Source of the DNA: Noviherbaspirillum pedocola
GTDB lineage: Bacteria; Pseudomonadota; Gammaproteobacteria; Burkholderiales; Burkholderiaceae_D
Length of the DNA stretch: 64,000 nt
NCBI RefSeq assembly: GCF_016632335.1
Contig: NZ_JAEPBG010000006.1
Coordinates: 248,001-312,000, forward strand
Reading direction: 5' to 3'
Position 1 is the first letter of the stretch. Each line of letters starts with the position of its first letter. Positions 6,016 to 62,869 of the stretch are shown here, in pieces. Made by a program: the position numbers and the translations under genes. The notes under the pieces are model-generated. The model did no database searches. It was not told where the DNA came from and saw only the letters and a list, made by a program, of their open reading frames with translations.

Positions 6016-7809
6016 ATGAAATCCATTTCTACACTGAAGCTCGCCCTTCGTTTTACCCTCGGCTTCGGCCTGATCGCTTTAATCATCACCGCCCTATCCA
6101 CCTTTTCACTGATCCGCGTGTCGCAGATCACGACCGTGGTCGAGCAGCAGAATCGCTTAAGGACCGACAAGCTCGAACGGCTCTACACCGCACGCGAGGC
6201 GCTGGACCAGACCGGCCTAGCTGCACGCAATGCCTTCATCTTTCCGGACGGCGAGCGCGCGCGCGAAGAACTCGATCTGCTGGACAAGGAAAAGGCGCTC
6301 TACCTCGATGCGCTCACGGCCATGACGCCGCTGTTCCACGGCGATGAGCATTTCGCCAAGGTGCGGTCCGGGCTGATGTCGATGGCGGATGAACTGCGCC
6401 GTCCCCGCAAATACCGCGAAGCCGGCCAGATGGAGGCATACGGCAAGTTCCTCGTCGAAGAGTGCAGCCCGCTGCGCCGCCGCATCGTGGCCGACATCGC
6501 CGTGGTCATCAAGGAACTGCAGCAGCAGGTCGATACCGAGAGCCAGCGCGCCGAGCATCTGTCCGTACAATCGCAGTCGATAATTCTTGCCGTCTCTGCG
6601 GTAGCGGTGCTGTTGAGCATCCTCATCGGCTGGATCCTGACGCGCAGCCTGCTGCGCCAGCTGGGCGGCGAACCGGAACAGGTCAGCGCCATTGCGCGCC
6701 ACATTGCCCGTGGCGAGCTCACCGCCGAAATTCCGGTCAAGAGCGGCGACACGCGCAGCGTCATGCATGCGATGCAGGACATGCGCGACAACCTGGTGAA
6801 AATCGTTTCCGACGTGCGCGTGGGCACCGAAGCGATTAACCGCGCCGCAGGCGAGATCGCGGCCGGCAACCTGAACCTGTCCACCCGTACCGAGGAGCAG
6901 GCCGCATCGCTAGAAGAGACGGCCGCTGCGATGGAGGAGCTGACCTCGACCGTGGCGCGCAATACGCAAAACGCCGAGGAAGCGAACTCGTTGGCGATAT
7001 CTGCCGCGTCCGTCGCCGGCGATGGCGGCCAGGCGGTGGCGCGCGTCGTTGAAACGATGGGCTTGATCGATGAAGCCGCTCGCCGCATCAGCGACATTAC
7101 CAGCGTCATCGACGGTATCGCGTTCCAGACCAACATCCTGGCGCTCAATGCCGCTGTCGAAGCCGCGCGCGCGGGCGAGCAAGGTCGTGGCTTCGCGGTC
7201 GTCGCCGCAGAGGTCCGCGCATTGGCGCAACGCAGCGCCGGCGCAGCCAAGGAAATCAAGGACCTGATCGGCAAGTCGGTCGACATGGTGGCGCTGGGCA
7301 GCCGGCAGGCCGGTGAAGCCGGCGAGACGATGAGCGAGGTGGTGTCGGGGGTGCAGCAGATGGCCGGCATGATGACCGAAATCATGGAGGCCTCGCGCCA
7401 GCAAAGCGCGGGCATCGTCGAGGTCAATCAGACGATCCTCCAAATCGACGGTTCGACCCAACAGAATGCCACGCTGGTGCAGCAGGCCGCCTCGTCTGCG
7501 GCATCGCTGCAGCACCAGGCAGACAAGCTATCCGGCTCGGTCAATTTCTTCCAGCTCGGCGCAGTACCTGCGGCTGTGCCCTTGAAAGCGCTGCCGAGCG
7601 CTATCGCGCCGACGAATACGCCGCGCGCCGCTGCACCGAAGGCGGCAAAGCCTGGGGCCGCACCTGCCGAGACCAAGGAAGCACCGCCCCGCGCCGCCCC
7701 GGTTGCGAGAGCAGCAGCCAAATCGACCGGGCGTGCGTTGCGCACCGCGCCGCAACCGAAGCCGCGCCTGGCGCCGCATCAAAGCGACGCGGACTGGACT
7801 GAGTTCTAA
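6016..7809 (+). CDS. Methyl-accepting chemotaxis protein with C-terminal DWTEF pentapeptide
   Basis: A 597-residue transmembrane chemoreceptor. The start at [11 protein letters not shown] is chosen because membrane helix 1 (about 11-33) follows directly; upstream codons look non-coding. A periplasmic four-helix-bundle-type ligand domain (34-187) leads to helix 2 (about 188-208), a HAMP domain and the signalling hairpin, with its conserved tip [20 protein letters not shown]. An Ala/Pro-rich linker ends in DADWTEF, which matches the CheR/CheB tethering pentapeptide (NWETF-like) of high-abundance receptors. The ligand is unknown. No other che gene is adjacent; the cheW-receptor pair at 58.9-61 kb is separate. 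Confidence 0.92.
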
Positions 7810-7912: not shown

Positions 7913-9130
7913 CTACATGAGCATGTGTTGCTCGAAACCTTCCGCATCCTCAAAGCGCGTCGACGCGCCCCTGATCGATTCCACCGCAATTTCGGTGCCG
8001 ACCCAGCGCCGGCTCAGACTCTCAGCGGCTCTGCCGGTCGTGCCGCTGCCGAAGAACGGGTCGGCAACCACATCCTCCTTTTCCGTCAGCAGCTCGATCA
8101 GAAATTTCGGCAACGCCAGCGGCATAGGAGCCGTGTGCGGGGGGAGGCCCATGTCTCGCATCCTCCTCTTGTAAGTGTTTTGGTCCGCGCAATTATGAGA
8201 CAGCCTGATGATGTTCCGAGGAATGGTGCCGGCCGTCTCATTGCCAAAGCTTCCCGGACGAATGCGGTAAGCGCCGCCGGCAAACGAGCCAGTGCGCCTC
8301 TCGCCGCCGCCCTCAATCAACCGTGCGTGGCGCTCGGTGTGCGGCTGCAGCACGCGGCGGTTGTCGCTTTTGACACGCTGGGCATCGTTGGAAAGCCAGA
8401 ACACGAAGGAATAGGTCGCGGTCAACTGCACGCGCCGTTTGCTGGCCCATTGCACTGGCGACGGTGGCGCCGACGTGTTTTCCCACACGAGCCGATCCAT
8501 GAGTTCAAGTCCAAGCCGGTCATGCAGCGCCAGCAGCAGGCGCTCGCAGTACATCGAGCGCGCCGGGGACCTGGGCATGTAAATGTTCGGGCTAATTTCG
8601 AGGCACACCGAGGCACCCGGCACGAGACGCTTGATGACTGGCTCCAGCGCCCTGGTGATCCAGTCGACGAATTCCTTTTCCGACACATTTCCGTAATTGC
8701 GGGGATTCGCCAGCGGAAAAGGTGGAGAGGAGACGATCAAAGAGATCGGTATATCGAGGCGGGAAAAAACGGAATCGCAGGAGCCGAGAATTGCCAGCCC
8801 GAGCTTGGTCGAGAACGCGAGGACGCTGTACTGCGGCAAAATCTTATGGAGGTCTTTACCGGCCTTTTCGGTTAATTCCCAGACGCCGCGCTGGCCAGGC
8901 ACATGGCGCAGAATGCCGGCCTGCTTTGCCGACTGCTGCCACCAGCGCAGCTTTCTCTTGATGACATTTCGCGGCGTGCCTGATTTACCGATCGGCACCA
9001 GGGAATTCATGGCTGTATCGTCGAGGTTGGCGCGCAATGCGACCTCGCGATAAAGCTGCTCATTTGTCAGCCTGCCGGCATTGGCTTGATAGCTTTCGAG
9101 AACGGCCTGAAAAAGATTGAGTTGTTCCAT
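7913..9130 (-). CDS. Orphan site-specific DNA methyltransferase (beta-class, N4/N6 amino)
   Basis: A 405-residue protein. Residues about 1-105 form a winged-helix-like module (LTNEQLYREVALRANLD ... GVWELTE) like those fused to Mrr and some modification enzymes. The methyltransferase follows with the catalytic motif first (LIVSSPPFPL, variant of TSPPY) and the SAM-binding motif last (DPFFGSGTTGRAAE). That order defines the beta class of amino-methyltransferases. No restriction endonuclease gene is adjacent, so it looks like an orphan with an epigenetic or anti-restriction role. SPPF rather than DPPY suggests N4-cytosine or N6-adenine specificity cannot be decided by eye. Start at 9130 by domain extent; the ribosome site is weak. 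Confidence 0.85.
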   Translation of the reverse strand: MEQLNLFQAVLESYQANAGRLTNEQLYREVALRANLDDTAMNSLVPIGKSGTPRNVIKRKLRWWQQSAKQAGILRHVPGQRGVWELTEKAGKDLHKILPQYSVLAFSTKLGLAILGSCDSVFSRLDIPISLIVSSPPFPLANPRNYGNVSEKEFVDWITRALEPVIKRLVPGASVCLEISPNIYMPRSPARSMYCERLLLALHDRLGLELMDRLVWENTSAPPSPVQWASKRRVQLTATYSFVFWLSNDAQRVKSDNRRVLQPHTERHARLIEGGGERRTGSFAGGAYRIRPGSFGNETAGTIPRNIIRLSHNCADQNTYKRRMRDMGLPPHTAPMPLALPKFLIELLTEKEDVVADPFFGSGTTGRAAESLSRRWVGTEIAVESIRGASTRFEDAEGFEQHMLM

Positions 9131-9205
9131 TGGGATTCGGGGCGAAGGATCGATAATCCATTTTCGCCCCGAATATGGCCGATGCAACCGGCAAACAGCA
9201 GAGTG

Positions 9206-41788: not shown

Positions 41789-41809
41789 CGTTGGTATCAA
41801 CGATATACT
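41789..41809 (+). promoter_or_regulatory. Promoter with palindromic operator upstream of the RHH-like gene
   Basis: CGTTGGTATCAACG (41789-41802, arms CGTTG/CAACG) is followed by one base and the -10 hexamer TATACT (41804-41809), 31 bp before the ATG at 41840. The same arrangement occurs at 43502-43522 upstream of the Mom-like operon. Confidence 0.6.
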
Positions 41810-41839
41810 GGCCTTTCCGAACAGTTTGCCCACACCGCC

Positions 41840-42070
41840 ATGGCGACGAAGAAACGAACCGATAACACGAGCACAGAGCGCAGCGAGCGTCTGAATGAGA
41901 ACATCAAGGCCGCAGGTGGCGCCGGTTTCATGGTGCGTTTTCCCACCGCGGAAGAATTCGGCCGACTGCAGGACTTGATCGCATGGGGATATGGCACCAA
42001 CCGCAACGATGTGCTGCGAAAGTTGGTCGCGGATAAGCACGCGGCTATGAGGAAAAAGCGGTCGCCCTAA
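41840..42070 (+). CDS. Small ribbon-helix-helix-like regulator
   Basis: A 76-residue protein beginning MATKKRTDNTSTERSERLNE. The basic N-terminus, then a strand-like GFMVRFPTAEEFGRLQDLI and helix RNDVLRKLVADKHAAMRKK, fit an Arc/MetJ-type ribbon-helix-helix DNA-binding protein. There is little ribosome-site signal, but a -10 site lies 31 bp upstream, so the start is constrained. It is a plausible repressor of its own promoter and of the matching promoter at 43495-43522. Confidence 0.5.
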   Translation: MATKKRTDNTSTERSERLNENIKAAGGAGFMVRFPTAEEFGRLQDLIAWGYGTNRNDVLRKLVADKHAAMRKKRSP

Positions 42071-42109
42071 CGGCCCGAGGGGGGCCTGCCACGGTTGACC
42101 GCGCCATCG

Positions 42110-43243
42110 CTACGCGCTCGGCGGCGCCTTCAATCCGAAAAGCTTGGCGCGATCGTACGACACCATCACCTTGGCCTTCGGGATCACGGCAGTAATGGCG
42201 AATTTCCCCTGCGCGGTGTCGCGCGGCACTGGCTCGCCCAGCGGCATGCCATCCGGATTCACGAGGCTGCATACCAGTGGCGTGTGCGCTTGCAGCCCGC
42301 GCCGCACCACCACCGCGCTTTCGCCGTTGGCGAGCTTGACGTGGCTTCCTGGCGGATAGATGCCGATTTCCTTGATCAGCGTGCCGGCAAGCGACTGATC
42401 GAGACGCGCATCCTGCAACAGTTCCCTCGCGGCGATCTGAGGCGGCTTGGCGTCGCGGTAGGCGCGCGCGGATACCTTGGCCAGATAGATGTCGGCATGG
42501 TGTACAAGCTGCGCGATGGCCGAGGAACTTGTCCCGGACTCCAGATCTTCGGGATGGTGCTCCTCCACCGCGCAAAGCCAGTCGGCATCGTGCACGCCCA
42601 TCGCCTCGAGTACCGCCCTGCTGCGTGCGCCGTGATTGCGCAGGACCTGTCGCTGCGCCGCGGTGATGGGTTGGGTTTGCGCGGCAAGCGACGCCTGCGC
42701 CTTCAGGATCGCGATATTCATGGTGAGCGCGCACCGGCAGACGTTGCTCCTGTCCTGCGCGCTCCATTCCAGCCTGGCCGCCATGATCGAGCACAGCGCA
42801 GCTACGCGAAGATGGTGGGCAACGACATAGTGGCTCATGTCCATCTGCGTCATCTCGAAGATCAGCACGTCCGGCTTTTTCGCGGCCAGCGCGACGATAC
42901 GCTCGCCCAGGTGCATCACCTCGTCCACATGCGCCGCAGTCTGCGCGCCGATATGCCGGCAGTCGTCCATGAAGGCGAGCGTGAGCCGGGCAAAGCTCCT
43001 GCTGACTTCCTCCCATTCGAGAAAAGGGTCAAACACCTGCCGCTTGAGGTCGGGCTTGGGCTTGGCGACTTCCTGCGCATTCGCGTACATGCCCTTCTCA
43101 AGCAGGTGTGCGAGCTGGGTCTCGCTGATGATGACGAATCCGCGATGCAGCAGCAGCTGGCCCTTCGCTGAAAACACGTCCCATGGCAGCGGTTGATGGA
43201 CCCTGACCTGATCGGGGCCGATCTCGCATAACCGGATTTCCAT
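42110..43243 (-). CDS. Degenerate HD-GYP-like protein
   Basis: A 377-residue protein starting MEIRLCEIGPDQVRVHQPL (43243) after GGGAG. The N-terminus and spacing resemble the DUF3391-HD-GYP phosphodiesterases. Where the HD-GYP core should read HD and HHExxDGxGYP, here the helices read ALTMNIAILKAQ and VEEHHPEDLESG, so metal and substrate residues appear lost. It ends in a beta-barrel-like region (GSHVKLANGESAVVV, AVIPKAKVMVSYDRAK). A cyclic-di-GMP-binding or scaffold role without catalysis is inferred. Confidence 0.65.
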   Translation of the reverse strand: MEIRLCEIGPDQVRVHQPLPWDVFSAKGQLLLHRGFVIISETQLAHLLEKGMYANAQEVAKPKPDLKRQVFDPFLEWEEVSRSFARLTLAFMDDCRHIGAQTAAHVDEVMHLGERIVALAAKKPDVLIFEMTQMDMSHYVVAHHLRVAALCSIMAARLEWSAQDRSNVCRCALTMNIAILKAQASLAAQTQPITAAQRQVLRNHGARSRAVLEAMGVHDADWLCAVEEHHPEDLESGTSSSAIAQLVHHADIYLAKVSARAYRDAKPPQIAARELLQDARLDQSLAGTLIKEIGIYPPGSHVKLANGESAVVVRRGLQAHTPLVCSLVNPDGMPLGEPVPRDTAQGKFAITAVIPKAKVMVSYDRAKLFGLKAPPSA

Positions 43244-43494
43244 ACAGCTCCCTCTGACAACGCCGTTGATGAGTAGAGATGCCGACTGCAGTAAAGACCG
43301 CATCGTGGAATGCGCACCGACCATTTGTTGGAATTCGTTCTTGTGGCAAGCAGCCCGGCCGGTGCAGGCTATGCGCGCTGTTTTTCATGTTGCCATAAGA
43401 AAACTTCACCGACAACCCGCAACGTCTGCTTCAACACCCGCGCCTGCAAATCGTCTTGCACCGTACCGAAATGGCGACATGCCGTGCGCTCGGG

Positions 43495-43522
43495 TTGACG
43501 CCGTTGATATCAACGCTATACT
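43495..43522 (+). promoter_or_regulatory. Promoter with palindromic operator upstream of the Mom-like operon
   Basis: -35 TTGACG (43495-43500), 16-bp spacer, -10 TATACT (43517-43522). The spacer contains the perfect 14-bp palindrome CGTTGATATCAACG (43502-43515), placed as a repressor site would be. It drives the three genes 43566-45135 and closely matches the site at 41789-41809. The remainder of the 43244-43565 gap shows no gene. Confidence 0.65.
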
Positions 43523-43565
43523 TGAATCCATCGATGCGCACACGCATCCAAGCCGAGGAATGACG

Positions 43566-43886
43566 ATGGGCTATGACAATCCGCTTTTCCAACTGCCGGC
43601 AGCGAAGAAGCTGCTCGAGCTTCCGCTGGCGCAGCGCATGGAGATTGCCGCGCTGTTCTCCGAACTGCGTGTCCAGGCCAATGAGCAAGCCGAGAACGCG
43701 TGGGCCAGGCGTAAAAGTCCGATGGCCGCCTACTGGCGCGCGACAAGCACTTATTGCCGCCACTACTCGCACCTGCTGCGTCAAAAAGACCCGCGGGTGC
43801 TGCGTGCGGCGCGCACTGAAGCCGGTGCTGACGATATCGGCGCAGGCGACTCCTTGGGTCAGCTCCTGCAGCAGGATGCGCCATGA
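43566..43886 (+). CDS. Unknown protein, first gene of the Mom-like operon
   Basis: A 106-residue helical protein (MGYDNPLFQLPAAKKLLELP) starting at 43566, where GAGGA is seven bases upstream; an ATG two codons earlier is too close. Contains RMEIAALFSELRVQANEQAE and HLLRQKDPRVLRAARTEAG, typical of all-helical island proteins. It overlaps the next gene by four bases (ATGA). Confidence 0.5.
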   Translation: MGYDNPLFQLPAAKKLLELPLAQRMEIAALFSELRVQANEQAENAWARRKSPMAAYWRATSTYCRHYSHLLRQKDPRVLRAARTEAGADDIGAGDSLGQLLQQDAP

Positions 43887-44263
43887 GGGGCAACCACCAT
43901 ATCGTCGGCCGCAACGAAGCGCCGGAGTGGCCCGCTATCCATATCGCCTCGGATGGAGAGCGCGTCATCCTCGCGCGGTACCGCATCGCGCCGGTGAGCC
44001 TTGCCGCAGTCGCGTGGCTCGACGACAAGGACCGCGCAATGTGCGCCAAGCGCCGCCCAGTTGGCATCTATCGCGGCGACGAACTGGTCGCAATTGCCCG
44101 CGACGTCTTTTCGGTGGATGAAACGAAAGTCTATCTGGCCAACGGCATGCGCAGGAAGGTCTTGTTCGGTGTGGCTGGCGAAGAGTTGACGAACTATGAC
44201 CGCTCGATCCTTGTGGTCCATGAAATGCTATGTGAAGCATCGCTGACGGAGGACTGCCAGTGA
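43883..44263 (+). CDS. Unknown protein, second gene of the Mom-like operon
   Basis: A 126-residue protein with strand-rich segments (WPAIHIASDGERVILARYRI, RRPVGIYRGDELVAIARDVF) and a Cys/Glu-rich end (MLCEASLTEDCQ). It overlaps both neighbours by four bases. In phage Mu, mom is preceded and activated by the overlapping small gene com. This protein lacks Com's zinc finger, so only the position is similar. Confidence 0.5.
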   Translation: MRGNHHIVGRNEAPEWPAIHIASDGERVILARYRIAPVSLAAVAWLDDKDRAMCAKRRPVGIYRGDELVAIARDVFSVDETKVYLANGMRRKVLFGVAGEELTNYDRSILVVHEMLCEASLTEDCQ

Positions 44264-61358: not shown

Positions 61359-61994
61359 TTAGAAAGCGCTGGGACCAGGTGGTGTGACGGTAATACGGTA
61401 CCGGCTCAGCGTCATTGCAAGCTCATTCCATCGCGCCATTGGCGTGCTGGCGCGTTTGAGGATCTTCGGCGCGGCGCGATCGAACAAGGCGATTGCCGGG
61501 TGGCCGGTGAACCGCGATCGGTAGTAGATGCCGTCGACGCCGTCCTTGTGAGAGTGGACAGCAAGGCTCCACAGGTTAGGGACGTCATACGGGTAGGCCG
61601 TCGTAATGGAGTTGTCGGCACGGCACTGGACCAATCCCTCGACAAAATCGACAAGCCTGAGCTCCTGCACCACTTCAAGTCGCGCCACGGAGCGCGAAGT
61701 GATCGCGGCCTGCGGGAGGCATACATCCTCGTTCCCGGGTATCCGCGAGGGCAAATCGCGCAACACCGTTTCGGCGAAACACACGGCAAATTCCTCCGCG
61801 CAGTACAAGACGCCGAACTCCCCAGCCGGCGCATCAAAACGATAACGAACGTCATCCACTCCGGCGGGAGGCCGGTTGAAGTAGATCGGGTCCTTATCGC
61901 TACGGTGCGAGCGCAACAAGATGCTTCCCGCATCCACCTTCTTTACCGGCAGCGGAATACTGTCGAAGTTTGAGGGCGGCTGCGGACAGGTCAT
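61359..61994 (-). CDS. RES-domain toxin
   Basis: A 211-residue protein with the RES pattern: an arginine in ILLRSHR (28/31), YRFDAPAGEFGVLYCAEE (51-68), Glu75 in CFAETVLRD and Ser160 in DGIYYRSRF, the conserved R-E-S triad. RES toxins degrade or ADP-ribosylate NAD-related targets (NAD depletion or phosphoribosyl-pyrophosphate synthetase modification). The start overlaps the stop of the upstream antitoxin gene (ATGA at 61991-61994), a typical toxin-antitoxin arrangement with the antitoxin first. Confidence 0.82.
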   Translation of the reverse strand: MTCPQPPSNFDSIPLPVKKVDAGSILLRSHRSDKDPIYFNRPPAGVDDVRYRFDAPAGEFGVLYCAEEFAVCFAETVLRDLPSRIPGNEDVCLPQAAITSRSVARLEVVQELRLVDFVEGLVQCRADNSITTAYPYDVPNLWSLAVHSHKDGVDGIYYRSRFTGHPAIALFDRAAPKILKRASTPMARWNELAMTLSRYRITVTPPGPSAF

Positions 61995-62869
61995 CCTTCC
62001 TCTCCGAGCATCGTGGAGATGTAAGCGCTGGCCGCACGCACCACCTTTTCGATATCCACGCCCGGGTCGGCAATGACTTCCTTGGGCGCAAGCCCGTCAA
62101 GCCTGTAGTTCGGCTGCGTCATGAACGCATGGATTGCCCAACAGTCCTGATACCGCTCCTTGAATGGCGCCAGCACGCGCGCCAACCGCGTAGTCGGCAC
62201 GTCCAACTGCCATCGCGGGTAACGGTGACCGCGCTGTCGCGACGGCTCGAGCAACGCATACAGGCGAGCGCTCTTGCGCGCATCGTTGACTGCCTGCTCA
62301 CTCATGCCACTGACGTTCGCCGCTTCCGAAAGGCTCAGATTTTCGGCTGCATCCGCCATCTGTCTTTCAACGTACTGGCGGCCACGCGACAGGCTCTCGC
62401 GCATTTGATGGCTAGGAAACTCCTCTTCCTTGCTTTGCGCCTGCACGGACTCCGCAGCAGACGGCGCATACGAGTACATCCTGAGCGGTGCTACAAGACT
62501 GCCGAACACCACATCTGCGGCCAAATCAAGTCCCGCACGCTCGATCTCTTCCCTTTTCTGGGGGTCCTGAAGGAGCACGGAAAGCTCTGCAAATAGACGA
62601 TCCGCGACGTTCCTGTAGAGCAAGCCGATCTTTTTATCCGGCTTTTCGCGCGTCTGTGCCACCGGGACCAGGACTACATACTCGCCAACGGCAAGGGACT
62701 CCGCGGACTGCGCATCGACTGCGATTGCCTCGTGACGCTCGTCGGCCTCAACATCTGAAGCTGAGATAAGTTGCAATTTGCGTTCAGAATGGGCGCGAGA
62801 TTTAGACTCAGCAAGGCTCCGCTCTAACACCATAAGCACGGGCCGGTTGTTGTCTTGCTGGGTATCCAT
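61991..62869 (-). CDS. Long Xre-like antitoxin of the RES toxin
   Basis: A 292-residue protein, about twice the usual length of RES-partner antitoxins. The central part has a helix-turn-helix-like LSLSEAANVSGMSEQAVND (178-196), and the C-terminal ~75 residues (RYPRWQLDVPTTRLARVLAP, WAIHAFMTQPNYRLDGLAPK) follow the toxin-binding pattern. The N-terminal ~170 residues are an extra region of unknown fold with charged and hydrophobic helices. It should neutralise the RES toxin and repress the operon. Confidence 0.75.
   Translation of the reverse strand: MDTQQDNNRPVLMVLERSLAESKSRAHSERKLQLISASDVEADERHEAIAVDAQSAESLAVGEYVVLVPVAQTREKPDKKIGLLYRNVADRLFAELSVLLQDPQKREEIERAGLDLAADVVFGSLVAPLRMYSYAPSAAESVQAQSKEEEFPSHQMRESLSRGRQYVERQMADAAENLSLSEAANVSGMSEQAVNDARKSARLYALLEPSRQRGHRYPRWQLDVPTTRLARVLAPFKERYQDCWAIHAFMTQPNYRLDGLAPKEVIADPGVDIEKVVRAASAYISTMLGEEG

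Follow-up and report, generated by a model that had tools for sequence, protein, structure and literature searches.

How is a mom gene controlled outside phage Mu? In Mu, Mom transfers an acyl group to N6 of adenine (PMC7824862). It protects the phage DNA from restriction by the host, and cells die when mom is expressed too strongly or at the wrong time (PMC4461284). Control of mom outside Mu seems little described, and a module in the genome of Noviherbaspirillum pedocola offers a concrete, testable repressor-operator pair. The module lies in a stretch of 64,000 nucleotides (positions 248,001 to 312,000 of contig NZ_JAEPBG010000006.1), hereafter called the window. It contains two promoters that carry the same palindromic operator next to the -10 box, one preceding the gene of a small ribbon-helix-helix (RHH)-like regulator and the other preceding a three-gene operon that ends in a mom homologue.

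Two operator-bearing promoters and their place in the genome

The features of the module, in positions of the window, are as follows.

41789 to 41802, plus strand: operator 1, CGTTGGTATCAACG, with 6/7 palindromic pairs, preceding the regulator gene
41804 to 41809, plus strand: -10 box TATACT of the regulator promoter, one base (A) after operator 1
41840 to 42070, plus strand: gene of the RHH-like regulator, 76 amino acids
42110 to 43324, minus strand: open reading frame (ORF) of 404 amino acids between the two promoters, with a weak resemblance to HD phosphodiesterases (NosR-family model, E 5e-4; HD_5, E 0.06)
43495 to 43500, plus strand: -35 box TTGACG of the Mom operon promoter
43502 to 43515, plus strand: operator 2, CGTTGATATCAACG, a perfect palindrome that fills the 16-bp spacer between TTGACG and TATACT
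43517 to 43522, plus strand: -10 box TATACT of the Mom operon promoter, one base (C) after operator 2
43566 to 43886, plus strand: ORF1, 106 amino acids, no Pfam or PHROG match
43883 to 44263, plus strand: ORF2, 126 amino acids
44260 to 45135, plus strand: mom homologue, 291 amino acids, GTG start (PF25680, 60.5 bits against a cut-off of 27.1; phrog_1384, E 3.7e-23)

The first-pass annotation of this DNA had reported a 14-bp palindrome at each promoter, followed by one base and TATACT. Sequence and coordinates proved exact, the second palindrome is perfect as claimed, and the observation of two operator-bearing promoters is confirmed; the gene layout was likewise as described, and the assignment of Mom is firm. 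The regulator promoter has no recognisable -35 box, its best candidate being ACCACT at 17 bp with 2/6 matches. Among the 16 TATAMT sites on the window's 319.5-kb contig (C56), only these two have a 14-mer with at least 6/7 pairs one base upstream.

In the whole genome (7,238,072 bases in 80 contigs), the sequence CGTTGRTATCAACG occurs at three exact places, the third of which lies in a second regulator-mom module on contig C7. The composite promoter-operator pattern TTGACNNNGTTKRTAYMAACGNTATAMT, with up to three mismatches allowed, also gave three matches, all within the two modules, against none for the reversed control; the window's own regulator promoter is absent from these matches because it lacks a -35 box. 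Many unrelated promoters with the same palindrome, which had been named beforehand as the outcome contrary to control by one small repressor, were thus not found in this genome-wide search. Outside the modules, places that differ from the 14-mer by one mismatch include one on C21 and one on C32; the one inspected, on C21, lies within a long repetitive stretch, and no promoter was seen there.

On C7, the exact CGTTGRTATCAACG site and a fourth, imperfect site, CGTTGAGACCAACG, located 346 bp upstream of it, precede a mom homologue (ATG at 90554; PF25680, 65.3 bits against the cut-off of 27.1) and a regulator of 78 amino acids (ATG at 90194). The promoter-operators of the two modules are nearly identical, although the paralogues have diverged to 68% identity over 73 residues for the regulators and 69% over 283 residues for the Mom proteins. 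Regulator and mom are adjacent on C7, whereas the opposite-strand ORF, ORF1 and ORF2 lie between them in the window. In each module the mom promoter is better formed than the regulator's promoter-operator, which lacks a -35 box in the window and has a broken palindrome centre on C7. The genome was found to contain two PF25680 genes and two regulators of this family, and the operator stands at the start of all four genes or operons.

Beside the second module (L006 6073-7977), C7 also encodes a protein of 412 amino acids without a Pfam or PADLOC match and a DUF6884/YaaA-like protein of 219 amino acids with PADLOC matches to PDC-M57A (E 8e-14) and DpdC (E 1e-12), a gene pair that perhaps has a further function in DNA modification or defence. 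Genes of the PRTRC cassette are present on both C56 and C7, and no tRNA gene was detected on the two contigs (466 kb, covered by scans of the window and of pieces no longer than 20 kb). In Sphingopyxis granuli, plasmid pRW412a carries a mom homologue three genes after the PRTRC ThiF gene, just past the cassette (L064 1-5855). The PRTRC genes, the lack of tRNA genes and the position of mom beside PRTRC on the Sphingopyxis plasmid suggest that C56 and C7 are extrachromosomal replicons, and the association of mom with PRTRC is possibly a recurrent one (pRW412a, C56 and C7).

A regulator family with three palindrome types

Homologues of the regulator were searched for in 392 genomes of the family (twice), 399 of the order (twice) and 369 of the class, and in plasmids, phages and viral contigs; in many genomes only a subset of the initial candidates was scored (14 of 53 in N. 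pedocola itself), so that homologues may have been missed, and the searched collections may omit records very close to this genome. The resulting regulator family has 11 members, consisting of the window regulator, its C7 paralogue and nine homologues outside this genome:

Massilia putida plasmid NZ_CP019037.1: one homologue, with the same coordinates as in G380
Genome G269: two copies
Genomes G467, G019 and G358: one homologue each
Simplicispira suum plasmid, Aromatoleum aromaticum EbN1 plasmid 1 and Acidovorax carolinensis pACP4.3: one homologue each

The family is rare, occurring at E 1e-4 in five of the 392 family genomes, this genome included, with the candidates partly scored. The regulator was not found in the phage records searched, also when a homologue served as query, and none of 136 regulator-pattern matches in viral contigs was confirmed. 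Five weak matches (L066, L067, L068, L071 and L072; E 2e-7 to 7e-4) were left out of the family, and two of them, L067 and L068, look spurious.

Near every one of the 11 regulators lies a promoter-like site whose spacer contains a palindrome. A fixed filter, which accepted promoter-like sites with a spacer of 16-17 bp and up to three mismatches and required at least 5/6 pairs in the spacer palindrome, recovered 10 of the 11; the palindrome of G358, with 4/6 pairs, failed the filter and was recognised by eye. As background, the same filter accepted 4 of the 155 remaining promoter-like sites of C56 and C7 and none of 35 from 18 control loci; in this comparison the operator of the C7 regulator itself (4/6 pairs) was scored as a miss. 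Most spacers measure 16 bp; those of G467, Massilia and Aromatoleum are 17 bp long. In Massilia, Simplicispira, G019, G269 (both copies), G467, G358 and Aromatoleum the promoter lies closely 3' of the regulator gene and points to the next gene, with 10 bp (Massilia), 4 bp (Simplicispira and G019) or 40 bp (Aromatoleum) between the regulator stop and the 12-bp core of the palindrome. In Acidovorax (L051 974-5282), two operator-bearing promoters are located about 4.0 and 3.1 kb upstream of the regulator, and one extra filter match at 7504 of the same locus lacks the GTT core. The last genes of the pACP4.3 run behind both promoters encode a site-specific DNA methyltransferase and the regulator, which once more ties the design to DNA modification. 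Two further sites, GTTTATGTAAAC on the integrase side of the G467 locus (L016) and one at 4342 of L050, have no good hexamers and were not counted as promoters.

Three types of palindrome can be distinguished, each accompanied by its own motif in the presumed strand of the regulator. Type 1, GTTGrTAyCAAC, goes with V-R-F (window, C7 and Massilia); type 2, GTTTATATAAAC, with V-D-L/F or T-D-F (G269, G467, Simplicispira, Aromatoleum, Acidovorax and G019); and type 3, the CCGG-centred GTAACCGGCTAC or GTTTCCGGTTAC, with V-E-A-x-L (the second G269 copy and G358). In a small unrooted protein tree, the type 1 and type 3 groups form branches with support values of 0.90 and 1.00, and type 2 comprises the remainder; the palindrome types thus correspond to the groupings of the proteins. 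With its three operator types and almost constant promoter layout, the family offers a small natural experiment in protein-DNA specificity. A prediction written down before three further homologues were found came true for one of them, G019 (V-D-F), whose promoter reads TTGACA-AC-GTTTATATAAAC-GG-TATAAT as predicted.

In the six whole records and genomes scanned, the type 2 site GTTTATATAAAC occurs once in the 3.7-Mb G269 genome, once in the 4.0-Mb G467 genome, and once, twice and three times in plasmids of 140, 115 and 207 kb, and seven of the eight sites are in the region of the regulator. The eighth, at 134012-134023 of NC_006823.1 (Aromatoleum EbN1 plasmid 1), is the third site on this plasmid, about 59 kb from the regulator; it stands some 65 bp before a ParB-family gene, with a -35-like TTGATT, and this gene is possibly a further member of the regulon. 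Site and promoter together are rare enough for a simple regulon search, of which this gene is an example. The Massilia plasmid contains one further GTTGATATCAAC, inside the start of a small gene and without promoter hexamers, and a GTTT-type pattern gave no match in viral contigs. Exact copies of GTTGRTAYCAACGNTATAMT were found in 23 stretches among 257 billion bases of genome contigs, four of them one related Phyllobacterium sequence, and in eight viral contig stretches. A profile search of these 31 loci revealed no regulator homologue, and their printed contexts contain no TTGAC at the -35 place; they were therefore treated as chance occurrences.

The RHH-like label given in the first-pass annotation is a tentative one. 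Four of the 11 family members match the Pfam RHH_1 model below threshold (E 5e-4, 6e-4, 0.018 and 0.076), with matches that start near the presumed strand, and a short palindrome of the kind that RHH regulators usually have at their own promoter is present at the regulator's promoter and at a second one in the window and on C7, and also near the homologues. The window regulator alone gave no convincing match in Pfam, PHROGs or NCBIfam, and its matches to solved structures were weak and unconvincing. We describe the protein as RHH-like.

In G467 (L016 1740-2261) the regulator follows an ORF that resembles a tyrosine recombinase by eye, with GTTTATGTAAAC upstream (2246), and in Massilia (L014 8342-9219) the reading frame of the regulator overlaps with a gene annotated as a tyrosine recombinase. 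Integrases may be frequent neighbours of the family. On the Simplicispira suum plasmid (L049 4420-5219), the regulator comes directly after annotated genes of a RelE/ParE-type toxin and a HigA antitoxin. In the window module, ORF1 shares 54% identity over 94 amino acids with a stretch covering a small gene between traK and traJ of IncP-1-type plasmids, a description taken from the 20 matches listed among 62 matching plasmid records, and ORF2 has no match in Pfam, PHROGs, NCBIfam, PADLOC or the plasmid collection. Elsewhere in the window, an Mrr N-terminal domain is fused to an N6/N4 DNA methylase (7913-9187), and a RES-domain protein with an ORF of 292 amino acids directly upstream (61359-62869) is possibly part of a RES-type toxin-antitoxin pair.

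Proposed control of mom and alternative explanations

We propose that the 76-residue, plasmid-type RHH-like protein is a repressor that binds GTTGrTAyCAAC, probably as a dimer. Bound in the spacer between the -35 and -10 boxes of the Mom operon, it would block RNA polymerase or open-complex formation, and the second operator copy, at the repressor's own and much weaker promoter, would provide autoregulation. In the steady state, the strong promoter TTGACG-16 bp-TATACT would thus be held off, which would fit the Mu relative, known to kill cells when highly expressed at the wrong time. The promoter would fire when the repressor is missing or diluted, for which the preferred occasion would be the entry of the element into a new cell, where Mom could mark the incoming DNA against restriction until the repressor accumulates.

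The first-pass annotation had suggested one small repressor that controls itself and a DNA-modification operon, and the sequences support this model. Both promoters of the paralogous C7 module retain the operator, a palindrome occupies the same promoter position near homologous regulators of other plasmids and genomes, and palindrome types and protein branches go together. From these patterns we infer binding, autoregulation and the sign of regulation, and we consider the three together, with repression rather than activation, to be quite probable. Transient expression of mom on entry, suggested by analogy, is a tentative proposal. Similarly tentative is the wider picture in which a previously undescribed family of small repressors, with three operator specificities and a nearly fixed promoter geometry, runs establishment-type regulons in Betaproteobacteria, and in which a Mom payload on PRTRC-bearing replicons would burst at entry, hypermodify the incoming DNA and then be shut off as toxic. 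The design of the regulator may in this way time the protection of mobile DNA against restriction.

Several results weigh against these proposals. Looser relatives of the 14-mer are common in the genome: when up to two mismatches are allowed, 61 matches are found on the forward strand and 66 on the reverse, compared with 21 and 19 for the reversed control. Over both strands this is about three times the control (127 and 40), part of which is explained by the self-matching of a palindrome. At up to three mismatches the window contains 19 matches against a mean of 7.7 after shuffling, a number reached in 1 of 100 shuffles. The looser 12-mer occurs at six other places in G269 against five for the reversed control, and no promoter was seen by eye at the four of these that were inspected. 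The composite pattern matched three of the six records with a homologue and missed G467, Massilia and Aromatoleum, which have 17-bp spacers. The link between palindrome and tree rests on about two changes of specificity rather than on 11 independent events, and the second G269 copy and G358 have neither of the predicted 12-mers, their third palindrome type at the same place having been noticed afterwards. The plausible remote homologues L066, L071 and L072 showed no such promoter in about 3.1 kb each, with a filter that would likewise have missed the G358 promoter. As for the protein, the best RHH_1 scores in the family (20.4 and 20.1 bits) stay below the cut-off of 20.5, the window regulator, its C7 paralogue and five other members have no RHH_1 match in Pfam, and a poor single-sequence AlphaFold2 monomer model (pLDDT 58) has helices at 11-25, 37-48 and 55-73 and no strand. 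No PF03432 relaxase or PF13614 ParA was found on C56 or C7, other transfer genes not having been searched for, and conjugative entry is therefore put forward as a supposition.

The regulator was also not found within about 10.7 kb at any of eight other plasmid mom loci, chosen from 30 listed of 90 matching plasmid records, and the same eight loci have no coding-strand spacer palindrome within 5 kb upstream of mom. This rules out a universal mom operator, and the repressor-operator design is therefore one way to control mom and not the general one. A Mom query in viral contigs yielded no confirmed match among 81 candidates, and tblastn of Mom against phage records hit 24 records, with 27-32% identity among the matches listed.

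Four other explanations were weighed. The palindrome could be the site of an unrelated host regulator, with the RHH-like gene a mere neighbour; a third protein could bind both promoters, and the looser forms of the 14-mer are frequent in the genome. However, exact copies with a promoter are confined to the two modules, across plasmids and genomes it is the regulator gene, not mom, that the design accompanies, and the sequence of the site changes along the regulator tree while -35 box, spacing and -10 box stay similar, so that we rate this explanation as improbable, if the least improbable of the four. An activator or dual regulator of the Mom operon would be in line with some RHH proteins that also activate, such as AmrZ and NikR of H. 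pylori, and Mu mom requires the activator C. Yet operator 2 lies inside a near-consensus promoter, where a bound protein would be expected to block polymerase, and MobC, a known RHH protein with a spacer palindrome, represses (PMC4175270); activation is thus very unlikely and ranks behind a host regulator.

Even harder to credit is the idea that the regulator is an antitoxin, paired with a toxin, that in addition counteracts Mom, ORF1 or ORF2. RelB and other RHH antitoxins do autorepress via palindromes (PMC2812701), Mom is toxic when overexpressed in the Mu system (PMC4461284), one family member has a weak ParD-type score (E 0.0044), and the Simplicispira regulator follows the toxin and antitoxin genes mentioned above. 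Against this stand the regulator's size of only 76 amino acids, the 1.2-kb opposite-strand ORF that separates regulator and operon in the window, and the gene behind the operator, which differs among the homologues (another small or an unrelated protein). Least probable of all is a palindrome that acts as a single-stranded hairpin, forming an Frpo-like promoter on the entering strand rather than a protein operator. Such promoters drive leading-region genes, including anti-defence genes, in conjugative plasmids, but when folded as single strands the window sites are predicted to do no better than shuffled sequence (z -0.36, -0.61 and -0.81), a result on which this candidate was rejected, and the palindrome type follows the regulator tree. 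Repression by the RHH-like protein thus remains our preferred explanation for the two operators.

Comparison with known systems

Promoter palindromes bound by RHH repressors, establishment regulons and Mom have all been described before, whereas their combination was not found in the open literature, most subscription journals lying outside it. In that literature, no report joined a mom gene, ribbon-helix-helix, operator and plasmid, nor PRTRC with Mom.

Like the mom operon of Mu, the window operon has a Mom-family enzyme as payload, with an anti-restriction role that is assigned here by homology (PMC4461284, PMC7824862). Mu mom is controlled by the activator C, by OxyR together with DNA methylation, and by Com, whereas the operon described here has a repressor-type operator. 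Control of the Mu type by Dam and Com was rejected: there is no GATC in 43300-43530, and ORF1 and ORF2 match no Pfam family. Pfam holds a Com model.

The RHH protein RelB of the E. coli relBE system has a palindromic half-site of 12 bp, TTGTAATTACAA, in the region of its own promoter (PMC2812701). There, two adjacent 12-bp sites span -10 to +17 and the partner is a toxin, whereas one 12-bp core in the spacer is found here. Closer in geometry is MobC of the IncU plasmid RA3, an RHH autorepressor with an imperfect palindrome between the -35 and -10 boxes (PMC4175270). MobC, however, is a transfer auxiliary protein of 176 amino acids, encoded in an operon beside oriT and with another palindrome, and the accessible portion of the report names no DNA-modification target for it (PMC4175270). 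A relaxosome role of the MobC type is not indicated for the present regulator, with its 76 amino acids and with no PF03432 relaxase on the contig.

Closest in logic is Reg of Bacillus pumilus p576 and the clade II pLS20-family plasmids, a predicted RHH repressor that represses strong promoters before anti-restriction and other genes via shared operators and controls itself more loosely (PMC8708921). Reg represses itself less strictly than the anti-restriction promoter, and its target fires briefly in a repressor-free cell (PMC8708921). The Reg sites lie just upstream of the -35 box, some downstream of the start, whereas the palindrome here lies inside the spacer, and the payload of Reg is ArdC in Bacillus, whereas here it is Mom in Betaproteobacteria. 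The trait that they have in common is the same operator at the regulator's own promoter and at that of an operon which, by homology, would protect DNA against restriction.

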